Assembly (NCBI GenBank): GCA_022826005.1 | Contig: JAJDVT010000043.1 | Coordinates: forward strand, 1 to 64,000 | Direction: 5' to 3' | DNA: 64,000 nucleotides | Source: Gemmatimonadota bacterium | GTDB lineage: Bacteria; Gemmatimonadota; Gemmatimonadetes; Longimicrobiales; Gaopeijiaceae | Shown here: positions 51,767 through 59,887 of the stretch, piece by piece | Layout: each line of letters starts with the position of its first letter | How positions within the stretch are numbered: the first letter of the stretch is position 1 | Notes under the pieces: generated by a model | Databases searched by the model: none | What the model was told of the DNA's origin: nothing | The model's input: only the letters and a program-made list of their open reading frames with translations | Program-made: the position numbers and the translations under genes

Positions 51767-51937
51767 ATGGCCGCTGCCCGTCACAATCCCCTCCTTTTCT
51801 ACGTCCTGCTGATCGCCACCTTCGTGATGTCCTACGGAGTGATCTGGTTCGTCGTCAGTGCCAACGCGGCGTCGGTCGGCGTCGCCCTGGTGGGTGCCGC
51901 GGTGGTTTTCCTCACCGGCCGGAAGGTCTGCCAATGA
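51767..51937 (+). CDS. 56-residue membrane protein
   Basis: The frame at 51767 encodes 56 residues with two hydrophobic helices: PLLFYVLLIATFVMSYGVIW and SVGVALVGAAVVFL. It ends TGRKVCQ. GAGAG about nine bases upstream could be the ribosome binding site. Its stop overlaps the start of the MBL-fold gene (ATGA), which strongly supports real, coupled translation. I know no family for it; a membrane-partner role for the adjacent hydrolase is conjecture. Confidence 0.65.
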   Translation: MAAARHNPLLFYVLLIATFVMSYGVIWFVVSANAASVGVALVGAAVVFLTGRKVCQ

Positions 51938-52839
51938 GGGCCGGGGCGCGCATGCTGCGCGCGATTCCGGTCGTGGTCGGCGCGCTGGCGCTCGCCCCGC
52001 TGTCGGCTGCAGCCCAGCAGGATTTTTCGCAGGTCGAGATTCGCACCGAGCAGGTCGCCGACGGGCTCTATGTGCTTTTCGGTGCGGGCGGTAACATCGG
52101 TCTGTCGGTGGGAGACGACGGGGCCTTCCTGGTCGACGACCAGTTCGCCCCGCTCACCGAGAAGATCCTCGCGGCGGTCGCGGAGGTCACCGACCAGCCG
52201 GTGCGCTGGGTGCTGAACACGCACTGGCACGGCGACCACACCGGCGGCAACGAGAACCTGGGCCGCGAAGGCGCCCTGATCGTTGCGCACGAGAACGTGT
52301 ACCGCCGCCTCAATCCCGCCGAGTTCGCCGACCTGGTCGGGCGCTCCCAGCAGGTCGCGCCGGAGGGGCTGCCGGTGGTGACCTTCAACGACCGGGTCAG
52401 CTTCCACTGGAACGGCGAGGACATCCGCGTCAACCACATGCCCAACGCGCACACCGACGGCGACGCGCTCGTGTTCTTCACCAACGCCGACGCCGTGCAC
52501 ATGGGGGACACCTTCTTCAACGGGCGCTATCCCTTCATCGATGTGGACAGCGGCGGCAACGTCGATGGGGTGATCGCCATCGCCGACTACGTGCTCGGGC
52601 ACACGACGACCGCGACGACCATCATCCCCGGGCACGGCGAGATCACCGACCAGACCTCGCTGCAAGCCTACCGCGACATGCTGTCTACGGTGCGCGAGCG
52701 GGTGAGCGGCATGATCGACGACGGGATGACGGAGGACGAAGTGGTGGCCGCGGCCCCCACCTCCGATCTGGACGCCACCTGGGGCGAGAATCCCGAGGGC
52801 TTCGTGCGCGGCGTCTACGTCAGCCTCACGGGCAGCTGA
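51934..52839 (+). CDS. exported MBL-fold metallo-hydrolase
   Basis: This 301-residue protein has a signal peptide (MLRAIPVVVGALALAPLSAAA) and an MBL fold with HWHGDH (His97, His99, Asp101, His102) in the zinc site. The other ligands are His in PNAHTDGDAL, Asp in HMGDTFFNG and His in IIPGHG. All seven positions of a di-zinc site appear present. It resembles periplasmic MBL proteins that are not beta-lactamases in the strict sense. The substrate is unknown. It is coupled to the small membrane protein and followed 86 bases later by the selenoprotein gene. Confidence 0.9.
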   Translation: MRAGARMLRAIPVVVGALALAPLSAAAQQDFSQVEIRTEQVADGLYVLFGAGGNIGLSVGDDGAFLVDDQFAPLTEKILAAVAEVTDQPVRWVLNTHWHGDHTGGNENLGREGALIVAHENVYRRLNPAEFADLVGRSQQVAPEGLPVVTFNDRVSFHWNGEDIRVNHMPNAHTDGDALVFFTNADAVHMGDTFFNGRYPFIDVDSGGNVDGVIAIADYVLGHTTTATTIIPGHGEITDQTSLQAYRDMLSTVRERVSGMIDDGMTEDEVVAAAPTSDLDATWGENPEGFVRGVYVSLTGS

Positions 52840-52925
52840 GCCCAACTCTCACGCAACGCCAGGCCCCCGCGCGACTCCATGTAACCCGCCTGGGCCGCGT
52901 GCCGAAATCCATCCTCCGGAGAAAG

Positions 52926-53588
52926 ATGATGACGCGACGCACTGGAATCGCGATCGCAACAGCCGTGGTGCTGCTGGGCGGCTACTACCTGCTGGCCGGC
53001 CGCCAGGGCGCCGCGCCGGCCTCGCCTGAGAACGGGCCCGACGCCGCCGGCCAAACGGCCGACCTGGGCCCCGCCGACGGCCGCGACCTGCCCGGCCAGG
53101 ACACCGGTCGAGTGGCGGTCGGCGATGCCGCCCCCGACTTTTCGCTCCTCGCCTACTCGGGCGACGTGATCACCCTCTCGGACTTCCGCGGGCAAAGGAA
53201 CGTCATCCTCGCCTTCTACCGCGGCCACTGGTGACCCTGGTGCGCCGGTCAGCTCGGGGAGCTGAGTGAACTGCTGGACGCCGACCAGGAAGCGGACGCG
53301 GAGATCCTCGCCATTTCCGTGGATGAACGCCCGGAACAGCAGATGATGATCGACCGGGTGGCCGCCGAACAGGGCCGCGCCATCGACTACCATATCCTGG
53401 CCGATCCGGACCACGCCGTGATCGACCGCTACGGCCTCTTCAACGCCGACAGCCGGCGCCCGGTGCCCCACCCCGCCGTCTACGTCATCGACATGGAAGG
53501 CGTCGTGCGCTGGAAGTTCATCGAGGTCGACTACCGCATCCGTCCGAGCAACGAGGACGTGATGGCGGCGCTGGCGGAGATCGGCTGA
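52926..53588 (+). CDS. membrane-anchored peroxiredoxin, probable selenoprotein (in-frame TGA at 53232)
   Basis: The gene reads through one in-frame TGA at 53232-53234 to give about 220 residues. The frame is unbroken on both sides, and GHW-U-PWCAGQL replaces the usual GHWCPxCxxQL of an AhpC/TSA-like peroxiredoxin, so the TGA sits at the expected catalytic position (residue 103), with Cys106 forming a U-x-x-C pair. Upstream is an N-terminal helix (IAIATAVVLLGGYYLLAG) and a linker, then GDAAPDFSLLAYSG; downstream are ILAISVDERPEQQ and HPAVYVIDMEGVVRWKF. A SECIS-like stem-loop lies at the right distance. GGAG at 52918 precedes two possible starts, at 52926 and 52929. A sequencing error or pseudogene cannot be excluded without a read check. 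Confidence 0.85.
53249..53265 (+). promoter_or_regulatory. candidate bacterial SECIS stem-loop after the Sec codon
   Basis: TCAGCTC (53249-53255) pairs perfectly with GAGCTGA (53259-53265) with a GGG apical loop. The loop starts 21 bases after the TGA, within the spacing known for bacterial SECIS elements, which need guanines in the apical loop. Part of the stem is also the coding sequence. Confidence 0.65.
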
Positions 53589-53591
53589 GCC

Positions 53592-55838
53592 CTAGTCCTC
53601 CCCGAGCAGCTCCCGCATCTCCTCTTCCGTGAGGCCGATGCTGTCGAAGTCGATGTCCTCCTCGGGGTCTGCGGGACCGGGAGGAGGAGGGGGCGCGGAG
53701 CCGCGGGCGGCTGCGGCGGATGTGACGCCCGGTGTCGTGACGGGGGGTGTCGTGACGGCTGGCGTGGTGCGGGATGGCGTCGCTCCGGGTGCCGGTCCGG
53801 GCACCCTGGCCCCCCGCGGGGCCTGAGCTCCCTTCGCGGCATCCTCACCCTTCCTCGACGTCCTGCGCTTCTTCAGTGGTCGCTGCGAGATCGGCCTGCC
53901 CCACCACGAACCCAGCACCTCGGCCAGTTCCGTCGTGTCCCGGCTGCGGAAGAAGTAGCTTCGTCCCTTGACGGGGCGCAGGTGAATGCCCGGGCCGATC
54001 AGCCCGAACGCGAGCGGAGGGCTCCGGAGGATTCCGCGGCTAAGCCAGGCGCCCGAGCCGCGCTCCATGGCAATCTCCTCGATGTCCCCGGCCTTGAGGA
54101 TGCGCGAGCGCCAGGCGCGCGACTTGATGCGGAGGTGGTCCTCGAAGATGAGCAGCTTGCGCGGGGATGATGTCAGGAGCAGGGCCGCCGCCACGAGTCC
54201 GACGACCAGCATCCCGGCGATGGCGGCGTGCTGGATTACATAGTCGTCCACGGGGAGGAGCCAGCGTTCCACTCCCCACCCGATCCCCACCGCGGCGATG
54301 CGTCCCAGAGCGAGCGTAACCGCGATCAACCCGAGCGCGTACGCGGTTCTCAGCACCACTGGCAGCCGGAAATGCGCGACATAGCGGATGTCCTTCATCC
54401 GGACGGGCCTGGTCAGCGCCCATGCGACCACCTTCAGGGTGATCCAGATGAGCACCGCCACCGCGAGCACGGCCATTCCCTGGCTGACCGGCTGTGTTCG
54501 CGACACCGACAGGACCCGGCGTGACTCGTCGAAGGCGTGCGCCGCGAAGGACGCGACCTGGCTCTGGCTCAGGTTCTCGTAGAAGGAGAGGACGTCGGGG
54601 AAATCGGTGAAGGTGGCCGGGTCGTAGAAGACCTGGCGGGTCCAGGTGTTGAGGGATTCCGCGGTCTGGTTCGCGCCGCGAAGGCGTTCGATCACCGCCG
54701 CGCGGTCGGCTTCGAACTCGGCCGTGCCGAGCGAGCCCGAACGCAGGTACTCGATCTCTTCGTCGATGATCGCGCTGGCGAAATCATAGTCGTCTTCGTC
54801 GATGCGGCTGCTCACCTGCAGGAAGGCTGCCGGCCCGCGCATCACCAGGTTGGCGCTCGCGCCGTAGACGGCCTTGCGCTCCCCGTAGCGCAGGCGCTGG
54901 TTGAGCCGGCGGTTCAGCAGGTCGCGGACGAACATGGCCGTCAGCAACTCGTCGGAGTTGGCGTAGAAGAGCTTGTGGCGCGACAGGTAACCGGCCGTCG
55001 ACTGGAACCCCCACTGGTACGTGGACCGCCCGCGCCCCGGATCCTCGGCCGTGGTCGCCCAGCGCTCGACCGGTCGCGCGGGGAATGATCCGAAGGTGCG
55101 CTGCGCGCGGTCGAGCGCCTCGTCCCGGTCGAGGTCGCCTACGATCGTGACGGTCATGACCGAGGGCGAGTAGTACCGGTCGTAGAAGCCGCGCAGATCC
55201 TCCGGGGTGATGCCCTGCAGGCTCCGCCACATGTCCGGGAAGGGGGCGCGCAGCCGCTCAATGCCGAACTCGCGCTCCCAGAAGTCCGGGAACGCGAGCC
55301 AGCCCGGGTTGAGCGCGGCCACGAGGTGGTCGAAGAACTCGCGCGGCCGGGCGCGGATCTCGTTCTCGACCGGCTGCCGCCCGCGGTCCACCACGGCCGG
55401 GTCCATCTCGTGCGGGGAAAGGATGCCGGCCAGCCACTCGATGGCGAACAGCCCGTGCTCCCGGCCGATGGTCACGTAGTACCAGGTGCGGTCGCGGTAG
55501 GTGAAGCCGTTGCGCCGCCCGCCGATCCCTTCCACGGCGTCCTTGATCTCCTGCTCGGTGCGGCCGTCGTGGTCCGAGAAGAGCATGTGCTCAGTGAAAT
55601 GGGCTAGCTGCTCCTTGCCCGGCGGATCCGCGTCGGACCCCACCGGCACTCCCGCGCTAACCGATACGTTCGGCGCGCCGGGAAGCTGCTTGAACCAGAT
55701 CTTGACGCCGTTGGAGAGGAAGTGGGTCTCGAAGCCGGCGAAGGGGTTGGAGGTCTCCTGACCCACGCCTCGTCCCGCGCCAAGCAGCACGGCCAACGCC
55801 AGGCCGATGGCAACCGACCCGGACCGCACACCTTCCAT
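53592..55838 (-). CDS. M16-family metallopeptidase fused to membrane helices and a PH-like domain
   Basis: This 748-residue protein has a signal peptide, then an M16 domain with HFTEH (His80, Glu83, His84) and Glu158 in PVENEIRARP, 75 residues later, completing the zinc site. A second M16-like half (to about 430) lacks a motif, as usual. A membrane segment (MAVLAVAVLIWITLKVVAW) and several further hydrophobic stretches follow, then a PH-like beta domain (LLIFEDHLRIKSRAW, GPGIHLRPVKG). A Pro/Ala/Thr-rich linker and an acidic tail (DSIGLTEEEMRELLGED) end it. Family members are usually about 420-480 residues; the extra C-terminal membrane and PH-like part is unusual. Confidence 0.87.
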   Translation of the reverse strand: MEGVRSGSVAIGLALAVLLGAGRGVGQETSNPFAGFETHFLSNGVKIWFKQLPGAPNVSVSAGVPVGSDADPPGKEQLAHFTEHMLFSDHDGRTEQEIKDAVEGIGGRRNGFTYRDRTWYYVTIGREHGLFAIEWLAGILSPHEMDPAVVDRGRQPVENEIRARPREFFDHLVAALNPGWLAFPDFWEREFGIERLRAPFPDMWRSLQGITPEDLRGFYDRYYSPSVMTVTIVGDLDRDEALDRAQRTFGSFPARPVERWATTAEDPGRGRSTYQWGFQSTAGYLSRHKLFYANSDELLTAMFVRDLLNRRLNQRLRYGERKAVYGASANLVMRGPAAFLQVSSRIDEDDYDFASAIIDEEIEYLRSGSLGTAEFEADRAAVIERLRGANQTAESLNTWTRQVFYDPATFTDFPDVLSFYENLSQSQVASFAAHAFDESRRVLSVSRTQPVSQGMAVLAVAVLIWITLKVVAWALTRPVRMKDIRYVAHFRLPVVLRTAYALGLIAVTLALGRIAAVGIGWGVERWLLPVDDYVIQHAAIAGMLVVGLVAAALLLTSSPRKLLIFEDHLRIKSRAWRSRILKAGDIEEIAMERGSGAWLSRGILRSPPLAFGLIGPGIHLRPVKGRSYFFRSRDTTELAEVLGSWWGRPISQRPLKKRRTSRKGEDAAKGAQAPRGARVPGPAPGATPSRTTPAVTTPPVTTPGVTSAAAARGSAPPPPPGPADPEEDIDFDSIGLTEEEMRELLGED

Positions 55839-57499: not shown

Positions 57500-58255
57500 T
57501 CAGTCGGCGTAGTCCTGACCCTCCTCATCCAGAACTTCCTTCATGCCTTCGAGATAGCCCGCTTCGCCCGAGGACTCGATGGACAGTTCGGCGTTGAGCT
57601 TCGCGGCCGCGACCGGGATCGGGCGAATCCTCCGGCCCGCCTGGAGCACCAGCAGTTCGTTCATGCAGGCGCGCTCCAGCTGATAGAGCCAGAGCATCGC
57701 CTTCTCGATGGTGTCCCCCACGACGAGCACCCCGTGATTCGCGAGAAAGAGCACCCGCTTGTCGGCGAGCACCTCGGCCATGCGCTCGCCTTCGTCGGAC
57801 TCGGTGACCAGCCCCTCGTATCCGAAATAGGCGCAGTTCCCGTAGAAGACGGCCGCGTTCTGGCTTCCGCGCTCATCCAACCTCCATCCGTCGATGGAGG
57901 CGAGGGCGGTGCTCCAGGGGGCGTGGACGTGCAGCGCGCACACGATGTCGGGGCGCGCGCGCTGGATGGGAGCGTGGATCGCCCACGCGCTCACGTTGAG
58001 CCGCCCTTCCCTGCCGAACGGCGTCCCCTCCGGGTCCACCTCGACGAGGCTGCTCGCCGTCACGCGCGAGAAGTGCGTCTGCCCGGGCGTGATGAGCAGG
58101 TGTCCGGGCCTGCCCGGAACCTTGCAGCTGAAGTGGTTCCAGGTGCCCTCGTGCATGTTCTCGTGCACCACGATGCGATGCACCGCCGCGAAATCGACGC
58201 GGCACCGCCGCGACACGCGGGTCTCGCGCGCTACAGCGTCCGCGCCGACAATCAA
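57500..58255 (-). CDS. class II aldolase/adducin-family protein
   Basis: This 251-residue protein is a single class II aldolase-like domain. The zinc ligands are His109 and His111 in ALHVHAPWSTALA and His174 in LANHGVLVVG. The nucleotide of the start is TTG at 58255, overlapping the stop of the upstream coiled-coil gene (TTGA). Family members act as fuculose-phosphate or ribulose-phosphate aldolases or epimerases, or as decarboxylases. The N-terminal HENMHEGTWNHFSCKV is typical of the family, but nothing here selects a sugar substrate. Confidence 0.88.
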   Translation of the reverse strand: MIVGADAVARETRVSRRCRVDFAAVHRIVVHENMHEGTWNHFSCKVPGRPGHLLITPGQTHFSRVTASSLVEVDPEGTPFGREGRLNVSAWAIHAPIQRARPDIVCALHVHAPWSTALASIDGWRLDERGSQNAAVFYGNCAYFGYEGLVTESDEGERMAEVLADKRVLFLANHGVLVVGDTIEKAMLWLYQLERACMNELLVLQAGRRIRPIPVAAAKLNAELSIESSGEAGYLEGMKEVLDEEGQDYAD

Positions 58256-58794
58256 AAGACCAGCGCCTCCAGCGCGACGAGTATTCCCAGCGCCGCGCTC
58301 ACGATACCACCCAGTTTGATCGTCATGCGGTGTTCGAGAGCGCGCATGTCGGCACGGAGCGACGCCTCCATCTTCTCCAAGTCCTCCCGCAGCGACCCCT
58401 CCCTCTTCGCCAGATCGCCCCGCAGTACGGTGATCTCGCCACGCAGTGCCGCTTCGGTCTCTTTCAGGTCGCCGCGCACCCCGGCTATCTCGGCCCGCAG
58501 CGACGCCTCGGTCTTTTCCAGATCGCCGCGAACCCCGGCTATCTCGGCCCGCAGCGATGCCTCGGTCTTTTCCAGATCGCCGCGAACCCCGGCTATCTCG
58601 CCACGCAGCGATGCGTCCATCCGCCGCATTTCACGACTGAGCGCCACTTCGGTTTCCTTCACATGTCGCTTCGTGGGCAGGCTCTCGTCCACACACTGTG
58701 CGAAGGTGTCCACGAGCACGCGAGCCTGATCCTCGCTGAAGCCCGCTTCCTGCCGCAGTCTGGTGGCTGCGCTGAGCGTGTCGAAGGCGATCAT
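58252..58794 (-). CDS. DUF1640-like coiled-coil protein with C-terminal membrane helix
   Basis: This 180-residue protein starts MIAFDTLSAATRLRQEAGFS. A long charged coiled coil (about residues 45-155) is built of 18-residue units such as GVRGDLEKTEASLRAEIA. It ends in one hydrophobic helix (LGGIVSAALGILVALEALVF). The layout matches DUF1640/CCDC90-type proteins, which have a similar coiled coil before a C-terminal anchor. The repeats have 54-base DNA copies (see the repeat entry). It is translationally coupled to the class II aldolase-like gene by a TTGA overlap. Confidence 0.78.
   Translation of the reverse strand: MIAFDTLSAATRLRQEAGFSEDQARVLVDTFAQCVDESLPTKRHVKETEVALSREMRRMDASLRGEIAGVRGDLEKTEASLRAEIAGVRGDLEKTEASLRAEIAGVRGDLKETEAALRGEITVLRGDLAKREGSLREDLEKMEASLRADMRALEHRMTIKLGGIVSAALGILVALEALVF
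58479..58640. repeat. 54-base tandem repeat inside the coiled-coil gene
   Basis: The block beginning CCCCGGCTATCTCG occurs at 58479, 58533 and 58587, a period of 54 bases (18 codons). The first two copies are almost identical; the third diverges after about 40 bases. Less exact copies extend on both sides. Copy number could vary by slippage or recombination. Confidence 0.85.
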
Positions 58795-59026
58795 GATCTC
58801 CCTAATGTTGCCGCTTGTTGCCGTTATTGCCAGAACGCGGCCCCCGAGGCGGAGCCAAGGAGCAGTGGCGATACCAATCTCGCGGTCGTTTCCCGGCGCG
58901 CGAATGGCGACCGGGGACGGAAGGGAGCCCGATTCGCGGGGTGCGCGCTCTTGCCGGTGCGCCCGCGCGCGCGCACGATCAGAAAAGGATCTGCGGAACC
59001 GCCCCACAGCCGCTTGGAGGTGTCCC

Positions 59027-59887
59027 ATGAGAACATCATCGACGTCAATGTTCGCACTCGCCCTCACCGTCATCCTCTCAGCAGGCGCCGGACAGGCCGC
59101 CGCCCAGGGAGAGAACATGCTCGACATGATGGAGTTCGAGCGTCCCATCGCGGCTCTGGACAACGTCTGGCTCGAGGAGCTGACCATGCTCGAGGTCCGG
59201 GACGCGCTGCGCGAGGGCACCAACACCGCCCTCATCCTCACCGGAGGGATCGAGGAGAACGGGCCCTACCTGACGACCGGCAAGCACAACCACGTGCTGC
59301 GGGTAATGGGGGATGCGATCGCGCGCCGGCTGGGAAACACCCTGGTCGCGCCCATCGTCACCATCGAGCCCGGCAACCCGGAGACCGCGAGCTCGCCCGG
59401 CGGCATCCGCTTCTCGCAGGAGACCTACCAGGCGGTGCTGCGCGACATGGCGGTCAGCCTCAAGGCCCAGGGGTTCACGCGCATCTTCATGCTGGGCGAC
59501 AGCGGCGGGAATCAGCGCGGCATGGCCGCCGTGGCCACGGAGCTCTCGGAGAGATGGTCGGACGAGGACGTCGTGATCGCCCACATCCGCGAGTACTACA
59601 ACTACGGGGATGTGCTGACATATCAGCGCGAGGTGCTTGGAATCGACGAGGATCCCCGGCTGGAAGGTCTCCACGACGACTACTACATCACGTCGATCAT
59701 CATGAACGACGACCCACAGCATGTGCGCCTCCAGCAGCGCATCGCAGCCGACAAGGCGTCGATCAACGGGATCAGCATCCTGCCAGCCGAGCGGACGATC
59801 GAGCACGGAAAGCGGCTGATCGAGTTCCGCACCGATGCGACCGTGGAGGCGATCCACAGGGTGCTGATGGCGGCTCGTGGAGGTTGA
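59027..59887 (+). CDS. exported creatininase-family protein with altered ligands
   Basis: This 286-residue protein starts at the ATG at 59027, with TTGGAGGTG upstream, and has a signal peptide (FALALTVILSAGAGQAAAQ). The fold is recognisable: ALILTGGIEENGPYLTTGKHN, VAPIVTIEPGNPETASSPGG, FTRIFMLGDSGGNQRGM. Canonical creatininases have E-x-HGPHLP and G-x-D and a GHGGN loop for two metals; here the positions read E-E-N-G-P-Y, G-K-H and GDSGGN. Some of the metal ligands are thus replaced. It may be a creatininase-like amidohydrolase with a changed metal site. No partner gene is evident, although the large BNR protein follows 52 bases later. Confidence 0.8.
   Translation: MRTSSTSMFALALTVILSAGAGQAAAQGENMLDMMEFERPIAALDNVWLEELTMLEVRDALREGTNTALILTGGIEENGPYLTTGKHNHVLRVMGDAIARRLGNTLVAPIVTIEPGNPETASSPGGIRFSQETYQAVLRDMAVSLKAQGFTRIFMLGDSGGNQRGMAAVATELSERWSDEDVVIAHIREYYNYGDVLTYQREVLGIDEDPRLEGLHDDYYITSIIMNDDPQHVRLQQRIAADKASINGISILPAERTIEHGKRLIEFRTDATVEAIHRVLMAARGG

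Follow-up and report, generated by a model that had tools for sequence, protein, structure and literature searches.

A predicted exported selenoprotein of the Prx-like UxxC type in Gemmatimonadota

Thiol-disulfide oxidoreductases of the ResA/TlpA type are exported and carry a CxxC-type motif where a helix begins. The Prx-like thiol:disulfide oxidoreductases are selenoproteins with a pfam00578 domain and a UxxC or UxxU motif that were named "Prx-like" in the Sargasso Sea set (PMC1088965). In the GOS set, "Prx-like 1" is represented by 225 entries and is among the more numerous selenoproteins (PMC2398784), and a 2026 table lists the Prx-like UxxC class as having a predicted activity, with high confidence (PMC13188914). 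In a different arrangement, the selenocysteine (Sec, U) of PrxU (NF040737) replaces the peroxidatic Cys, giving the motif PxxxTxxU (PMC13188914). For the Gemmatimonadota, we found no paper on selenoproteins in the open-licence literature.

We analyzed a stretch of 64,000 nt of DNA assigned to a Gemmatimonadota bacterium (hereafter, the window), in which a gene for a protein of 220 aa (52926..53588, plus strand) had been predicted to encode an exported selenocysteine peroxiredoxin. The coordinates of the gene proved to be right, and the TGA at 53232..53234 is, as predicted, the sole internal stop in an otherwise open frame that ends with a TGA terminator at 53586-53588. Read as Sec, this codon yields the motif FYRGHW-U103-PWC106, so that the proposed U-x-x-C pair consists of Sec103, the first residue of UxxC, and Cys106 (codon 53241..53243, plus strand). 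A putative Shine-Dalgarno-like GGAG (52918..52921, plus strand), identified by reading the sequence, precedes the first ATG (52926) by 4 nt and a second ATG (52929) by 7 nt; judging from this spacing, translation may in fact begin at the second ATG. For the reasons given below, we consider it almost certain that the TGA at 53232 encodes Sec.

The AhpC/TSA (peroxiredoxin-fold) domain of the protein spans residues 65-196 (53118..53513, plus strand) and matches Pfam AhpC-TSA PF00578 with 99.8 bits, compared with a cut-off of 26. Together with the UxxC motif, this is the combination by which the Prx-like UxxC class is defined (PMC13188914, PMC1088965). Judged by motif and domain, the gene is thus assigned to this published class. 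Like its described members, it combines the Pfam domain with UxxC in place of TxxU, a bacterial SECIS downstream and Cys homologues (PMC1088965, PMC2398784, PMC13188914). The features that appear to set the proteins analyzed here apart are a conserved YRGHWUPYC motif, predicted export and occurrence in Gemmatimonadota and in some Acidobacteriota, Binatota and Myxococcota.

None of the curated NCBIfam models reached its cut-off with the window's protein. The highest score was that of ResA (NF002854), at 48.9 bits against a cut-off of 170, and PrxU (NF040737), which shares the AhpC/TSA fold and an active-site Sec with our protein, scored 47.8 bits against a cut-off of 270. The same models are matched by 48 relatives, a count of matches irrespective of the cut-offs. 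The predicted export and the CxxC-type motif at a helix start are features in common with ResA/TlpA, but the fold ranks nearest to the peroxiredoxins. In the AlphaFold2 model (mean pLDDT 87.9, with block means above 90 across the AhpC/TSA domain), the nearest solved fold is M. tuberculosis AhpE, a 1-Cys peroxiredoxin (PDB 1XVW, 4X1U), with a Z score of 22.7 and an rmsd of 1.8 over 156 residues at 27% identity (VIA-align). In the sense of fold and superfamily, that is, the AhpC/TSA thioredoxin-like fold, the protein is a peroxiredoxin.

The position of Sec within this fold differs from that originally proposed. We aligned the protein with AhpE (PDB 1XVW, 4XIH), alone and then with the family profile. 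U103 aligns with the Thr of the peroxiredoxin motif PxxxTxxC, and Cys106 with the peroxidatic Cys. Sec thus does not lie exactly where the peroxidatic Cys should be, as had been claimed, but three residues earlier, on the Thr place. Arg99 occupies the place of the motif Pro, and Pro183 (codon 53472..53474, plus strand, in an HP motif) that of the active-site Arg116, where the R116A mutant 4XIH also aligns; both H182 and P183 are invariant in A3. AhpE, by comparison, has neither UxxC nor CxxC and retains the three residues Pro, Thr and Arg, all of which are replaced in the selenoprotein. The reading as a Sec peroxiredoxin in which Sec is the peroxidatic residue is therefore not supported, and the protein is better described as a Prx-like UxxC protein than as a TxxU Sec-peroxiredoxin, in which Sec would stand at the Cys place and not at that of Thr. 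In the catalytic sense (PxxxT/SxxC(U) plus the active-site Arg), it is not a peroxiredoxin, only the Cys place being kept.

The residue at position 106 is Cys in 128 of the 129 homologues and Ser in one, and in the same proportion (128/129) the mature domain is devoid of Cys residues other than those of the motif. Since no other Cys is available in these domains, Sec103-Cys106 is the predicted redox unit of the selenoprotein. In the one homologue with Ser (L179, 3001-3519), UPFS replaces UPYC, the resolving Cys being changed to Ser (TCC) while the TGA and the hairpin are retained; the first position of the motif is thus the more constant one.

The protein carries a hydrophobic N-terminal segment, GIAIATAVVLLGGYYLLAG (52944..53000, plus strand; residues about 7-25), with a mean Kyte-Doolittle value of 1.99 over 14 residues, which could serve as a signal anchor or as a signal peptide. 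The predicted membrane anchor thus finds support in hydropathy, but its description as unusual does not. A hydrophobic or lipobox N-terminus is present in 127 of the 129 extracted homologues, the other two being incomplete, and all complete homologues examined carry an export signal by the simple hydropathy rules that we applied in place of a trained predictor. The type of N-terminus varies: it resembles a signal anchor in the group to which the window belongs, and a cleavable signal peptide or a lipoprotein signal elsewhere. Export is therefore predicted to be the rule for the whole family and no peculiarity of this protein.

From the features obtained computationally, namely Sec coding, hairpin, machinery, fold, export signals and motif conservation, we infer the chemistry, the direction of electron flow, the donor and the substrate as follows. 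SelB and tRNA-Sec would decode the UGA at 53232 as Sec, directed by the hairpin at 53249-53265, and the product would be exported, held by its N-terminal anchor, and would present UxxC at a helix start of the Prx-like domain. From there, Sec103 would attack an oxidised substrate, a disulfide or possibly a hydroperoxide, Cys106 would close a Se-S bond with Sec103, and a periplasmic thiol donor would reopen this bond and recycle the selenoprotein. We regard this explanation as a whole, an exported Sec-dependent thiol oxidoreductase with a Prx-like fold, UxxC and hairpin-directed Sec, as likely, and we lean toward thiol-disulfide rather than peroxide chemistry as its main activity.

The competing reading is that of a true Sec peroxidase, in which Sec103 (or else Cys106, occupying the peroxidatic place) attacks a hydroperoxide and is resolved by its partner, the role being extracytoplasmic peroxide detoxification. 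The nearest PDB fold and the sequence relatives are indeed peroxiredoxins, the best one, AhpE of M. tuberculosis, being a true peroxidase; Cys106 retains the peroxidatic Cys place; and selenolates are established to react quickly with peroxides. However, the exchanges of Pro for Arg99, of Thr for Sec103 and of Arg for Pro183 alter the peroxiredoxin site at three places, and all peroxiredoxin models, including the Sec-containing PrxU, remained below their cut-offs. We therefore consider a true peroxidase the less likely of the two readings. Returning to the oxidoreductase reading, we see about an even chance that a phylum-wide, always-exported subfamily arose by rebuilding of the peroxiredoxin fold into a selenenyl-sulfide oxidoreductase, with Pro, Thr and Arg giving way to Arg, Sec and Pro.

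As to the call of Sec itself, the original prediction of a selenoprotein is strongly supported by the Sec machinery, TGC orthologues, a SECIS-type hairpin and family-wide conservation. The genome holding the window contains selA (483 bits, cut-off 268), selB (297 bits, cut-off 242), selD (377 bits) and tRNA-Sec (77.9 bits, anticodon TCA), all above the curated cut-offs, so that the set selA, selB, selD and tRNA-Sec expected alongside a bacterial selenoprotein is complete. Across genomes, selA was found in 81 of the 82 with the Sec form compared with 201 of the 313 others (Fisher p 1.3e-12, uncorrected for relatedness); the one Sec-form genome in which selA was not seen, G334, is 90% complete. 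The selD gene has an in-frame TGA in SHGAGU-ACK, at the known, classic Sec site of SelD. This gene lies in the same bin on contig C71 (L010) and is followed by a hairpin downstream of the TGA, and SelD itself appears to be a selenoprotein in this bin.

In the homologue search of the phylum, 82 of the 395 genomes proved to have a close homologue with exactly one in-frame TGA. In the collection with named records, TGA was present at the Sec site in 80 of the 80 best loci. These were mostly from Gemmatimonadota (Longimicrobiales, Palauibacter, BD2-11 clade), in agreement with the assignment of the DNA to a Gemmatimonadota-like organism; the others were from Acidobacteriota, Binatota and Myxococcota, plus one Pseudomonadota MAG by its record title; for near-identical contigs, some GenBank titles (e.g., "Gammaproteobacteria") are clearly in error. 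Altogether, the TGA form was observed in well over 100 homologues from independent assemblies, at identities down to 44%. Substitutions 3' of the TGA fall mostly at third codon positions; therefore, the downstream part is under selection as protein. The bin that holds the window also contains a second Sec-form copy (L051/L104, on contig C60), which is 54% identical, has kept the TGA and the hairpin and adjoins an asparagine synthase gene.

Cys-codon homologues, which the original prediction expected to support Sec, do exist. Three orthologues have no in-frame stop and carry TGC at exactly the codon that is TGA elsewhere, and their genomes have neither selA nor tRNA-Sec. Bacterial selenoproteins are recognized by a UGA with conserved coding sequence on both sides and by homologues that have Cys in its place, and the present gene shows this pattern. 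The three Cys forms group as a single clade (100/98) nested among the Sec forms in a maximum-likelihood tree. The simplest reading of this topology would be one change from Sec to Cys, together with loss of the Sec machinery.

Downstream of the TGA, the transcript can form a SECIS-type hairpin (53249..53265, plus strand) with a 7 bp stem, UCAGCUC / GAGCUGA, and an apical GGG loop (53256-53258, plus strand) that starts 22 nt after the UGA. Among 76 distinct sequences, standard pairs were observed in 96.2% of the stem cells, compared with 27-50% when one side was slid, and compensatory changes were found at three stem pairs (UA to GC, AU or CG; CG to UA). The covariation score was reached by none of 500 shuffles. 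Because shuffles do not preserve relatedness, we added a test at the codon level. In 46 distinct Sec genes, the synonymous choice is frozen at codons +6, +7, +9, +10 and +11 (for example, Leu +10 is CTG in 46/46 and Leu +7 is CTC in 44/46), and it is free at the loop codon +8 and at Leu +13 and +14. Thus, the frozen codons fall exactly on the stem of the hairpin, and on stem codons only. In the Cys forms, the hairpin region reads CAGCTCAAGGAGATG, CAATTGAAAGAGATG and CAACTCGGTGAGCTT, and the hairpin is broken or weakened. Taken singly, the hairpin window had an unremarkable folding energy (z from -0.5 to -2.75), which was uninformative; the SECIS call was decided by conservation and covariation. 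Bacterial SECIS elements are marked, according to published work (PMC1088965), by a small apical loop in which a guanosine is conserved, and in the homologues of our gene the loop always starts with G; accordingly, the gene has a SECIS-type stem-loop 3' of the UGA with a small, G-bearing loop. An Rfam scan of the 64,000 nt window yielded no match, and a tRNA search within it found none.

These data bear on two further readings of the TGA. Reading of the codon as another residue, such as Trp under a different code, or simple read-through could in principle explain the open frame as well. However, both the selenoprotein gene and the preceding metallo-beta-lactamase (MBL) gene terminate in TGA, Cys (TGC) is the sole other residue seen at the site, and the genome has selA, selB, selD and tRNA-Sec and a hairpin that tracks the TGA, so that we consider this reading very improbable. 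Still less probable is that the TGA arose by sequencing error or that the gene of a Cys protein has decayed into a pseudogene. Only the general rule that in-frame stops often indicate such cases speaks for this reading, which is refuted by the family-wide conservation of the same TGA in well over 100 homologues of independent assemblies, by the third-position bias of the substitutions after it and by the conservation of the hairpin in TGA forms only.

The contig on which the window lies, C12, has 90-96% nucleotide identity to another genus of the same family, g4, and about 75% to its nominal genus. Between 43.9 and 62.3 kb, it runs colinear with contigs of g4 at about 82-95%, and a piece at 15 kb is 92-96% identical to g4 compared with 75-76% to the nominal genus. 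The bin also holds nominal-genus-like copies of both loci tested (C60, C103). Contig C12 is thus probably mis-binned, or else represents a large transfer; tetranucleotide profiles are weak evidence on this point. If C12 is mis-binned, the bin's sel genes and the window may derive from different cells. The Sec call would remain intact, because the genomes of g4 have selA (8/8) and tRNA-Sec (7/8).

As far as these comparisons of genomes can tell, what is new is that exported proteins of Gemmatimonadota and of some other phyla form a coherent subfamily, with a SECIS and a coupled change of Sec and machinery. Many Gemmatimonadota, together with some relatives, would accordingly possess an exported selenoprotein. 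Sec has persisted through deep divergence, and its single loss in this sample went together with that of the machinery, a pattern that may point to an extracytoplasmic role profiting from selenium in these bacteria. The paired Sec and Cys orthologues provide a natural experiment on the benefit of selenium outside the cytoplasm. Because no curated NCBIfam model covers the selenoprotein, standard annotation would truncate its gene at the TGA or lose half of it. What is known of the mechanism of Sec insertion is left unchanged.

The original prediction also drew attention to linkage with an exported MBL hydrolase. An MBL-fold gene (51934-52839 from its likely start, HWHGDH) does lie on the same strand and ends 86 nt upstream, but a meaningful linkage is not borne out, because the arrangement is kept in one genus and absent around most orthologues. 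The gene order is conserved in relatives of that genus that are 84-95% identical; in the nominal genus of the window, the orthologue has an MBL relative at a distance of about 3-4 kb, and outside these two genera no MBL gene was found near the orthologues. A search for operon partners revealed no neighbor common to the whole family, most other orthologues having different neighbors, and the MBL gene, an M16 peptidase gene and others adjoin the selenoprotein gene in one genus only. In two other genera (L098, 8698-11600; L099, 4957-9548), a Sec-form selD lies about 2.6-3.3 kb from the selenoprotein gene, a proximity that speaks in favor of Sec, and the interval holds a GcvT-like gene (aminomethyltransferase fold) on the opposite strand. 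In HRbin33 (L100, 9460-10002), an exported AhpC-TSA/redoxin gene follows directly 3' on the same strand, and its product is a possible redox partner. Neither the GcvT/selD neighborhood of the two genera nor the AhpC-TSA/redoxin neighbor in HRbin33 indicates a substrate.

Two further features of the window were observed. The M16 peptidase gene (53592-55838, minus strand; HFTEH) encodes a membrane segment and has an unusual architecture, in which about 300 aa at the C-terminus have no Pfam match. At 58388-58611, there is a 54-bp tandem repeat of 4.1 copies, which sits within a gene for a coiled-coil (CCDC90-like) protein on the minus strand (58252-59241).
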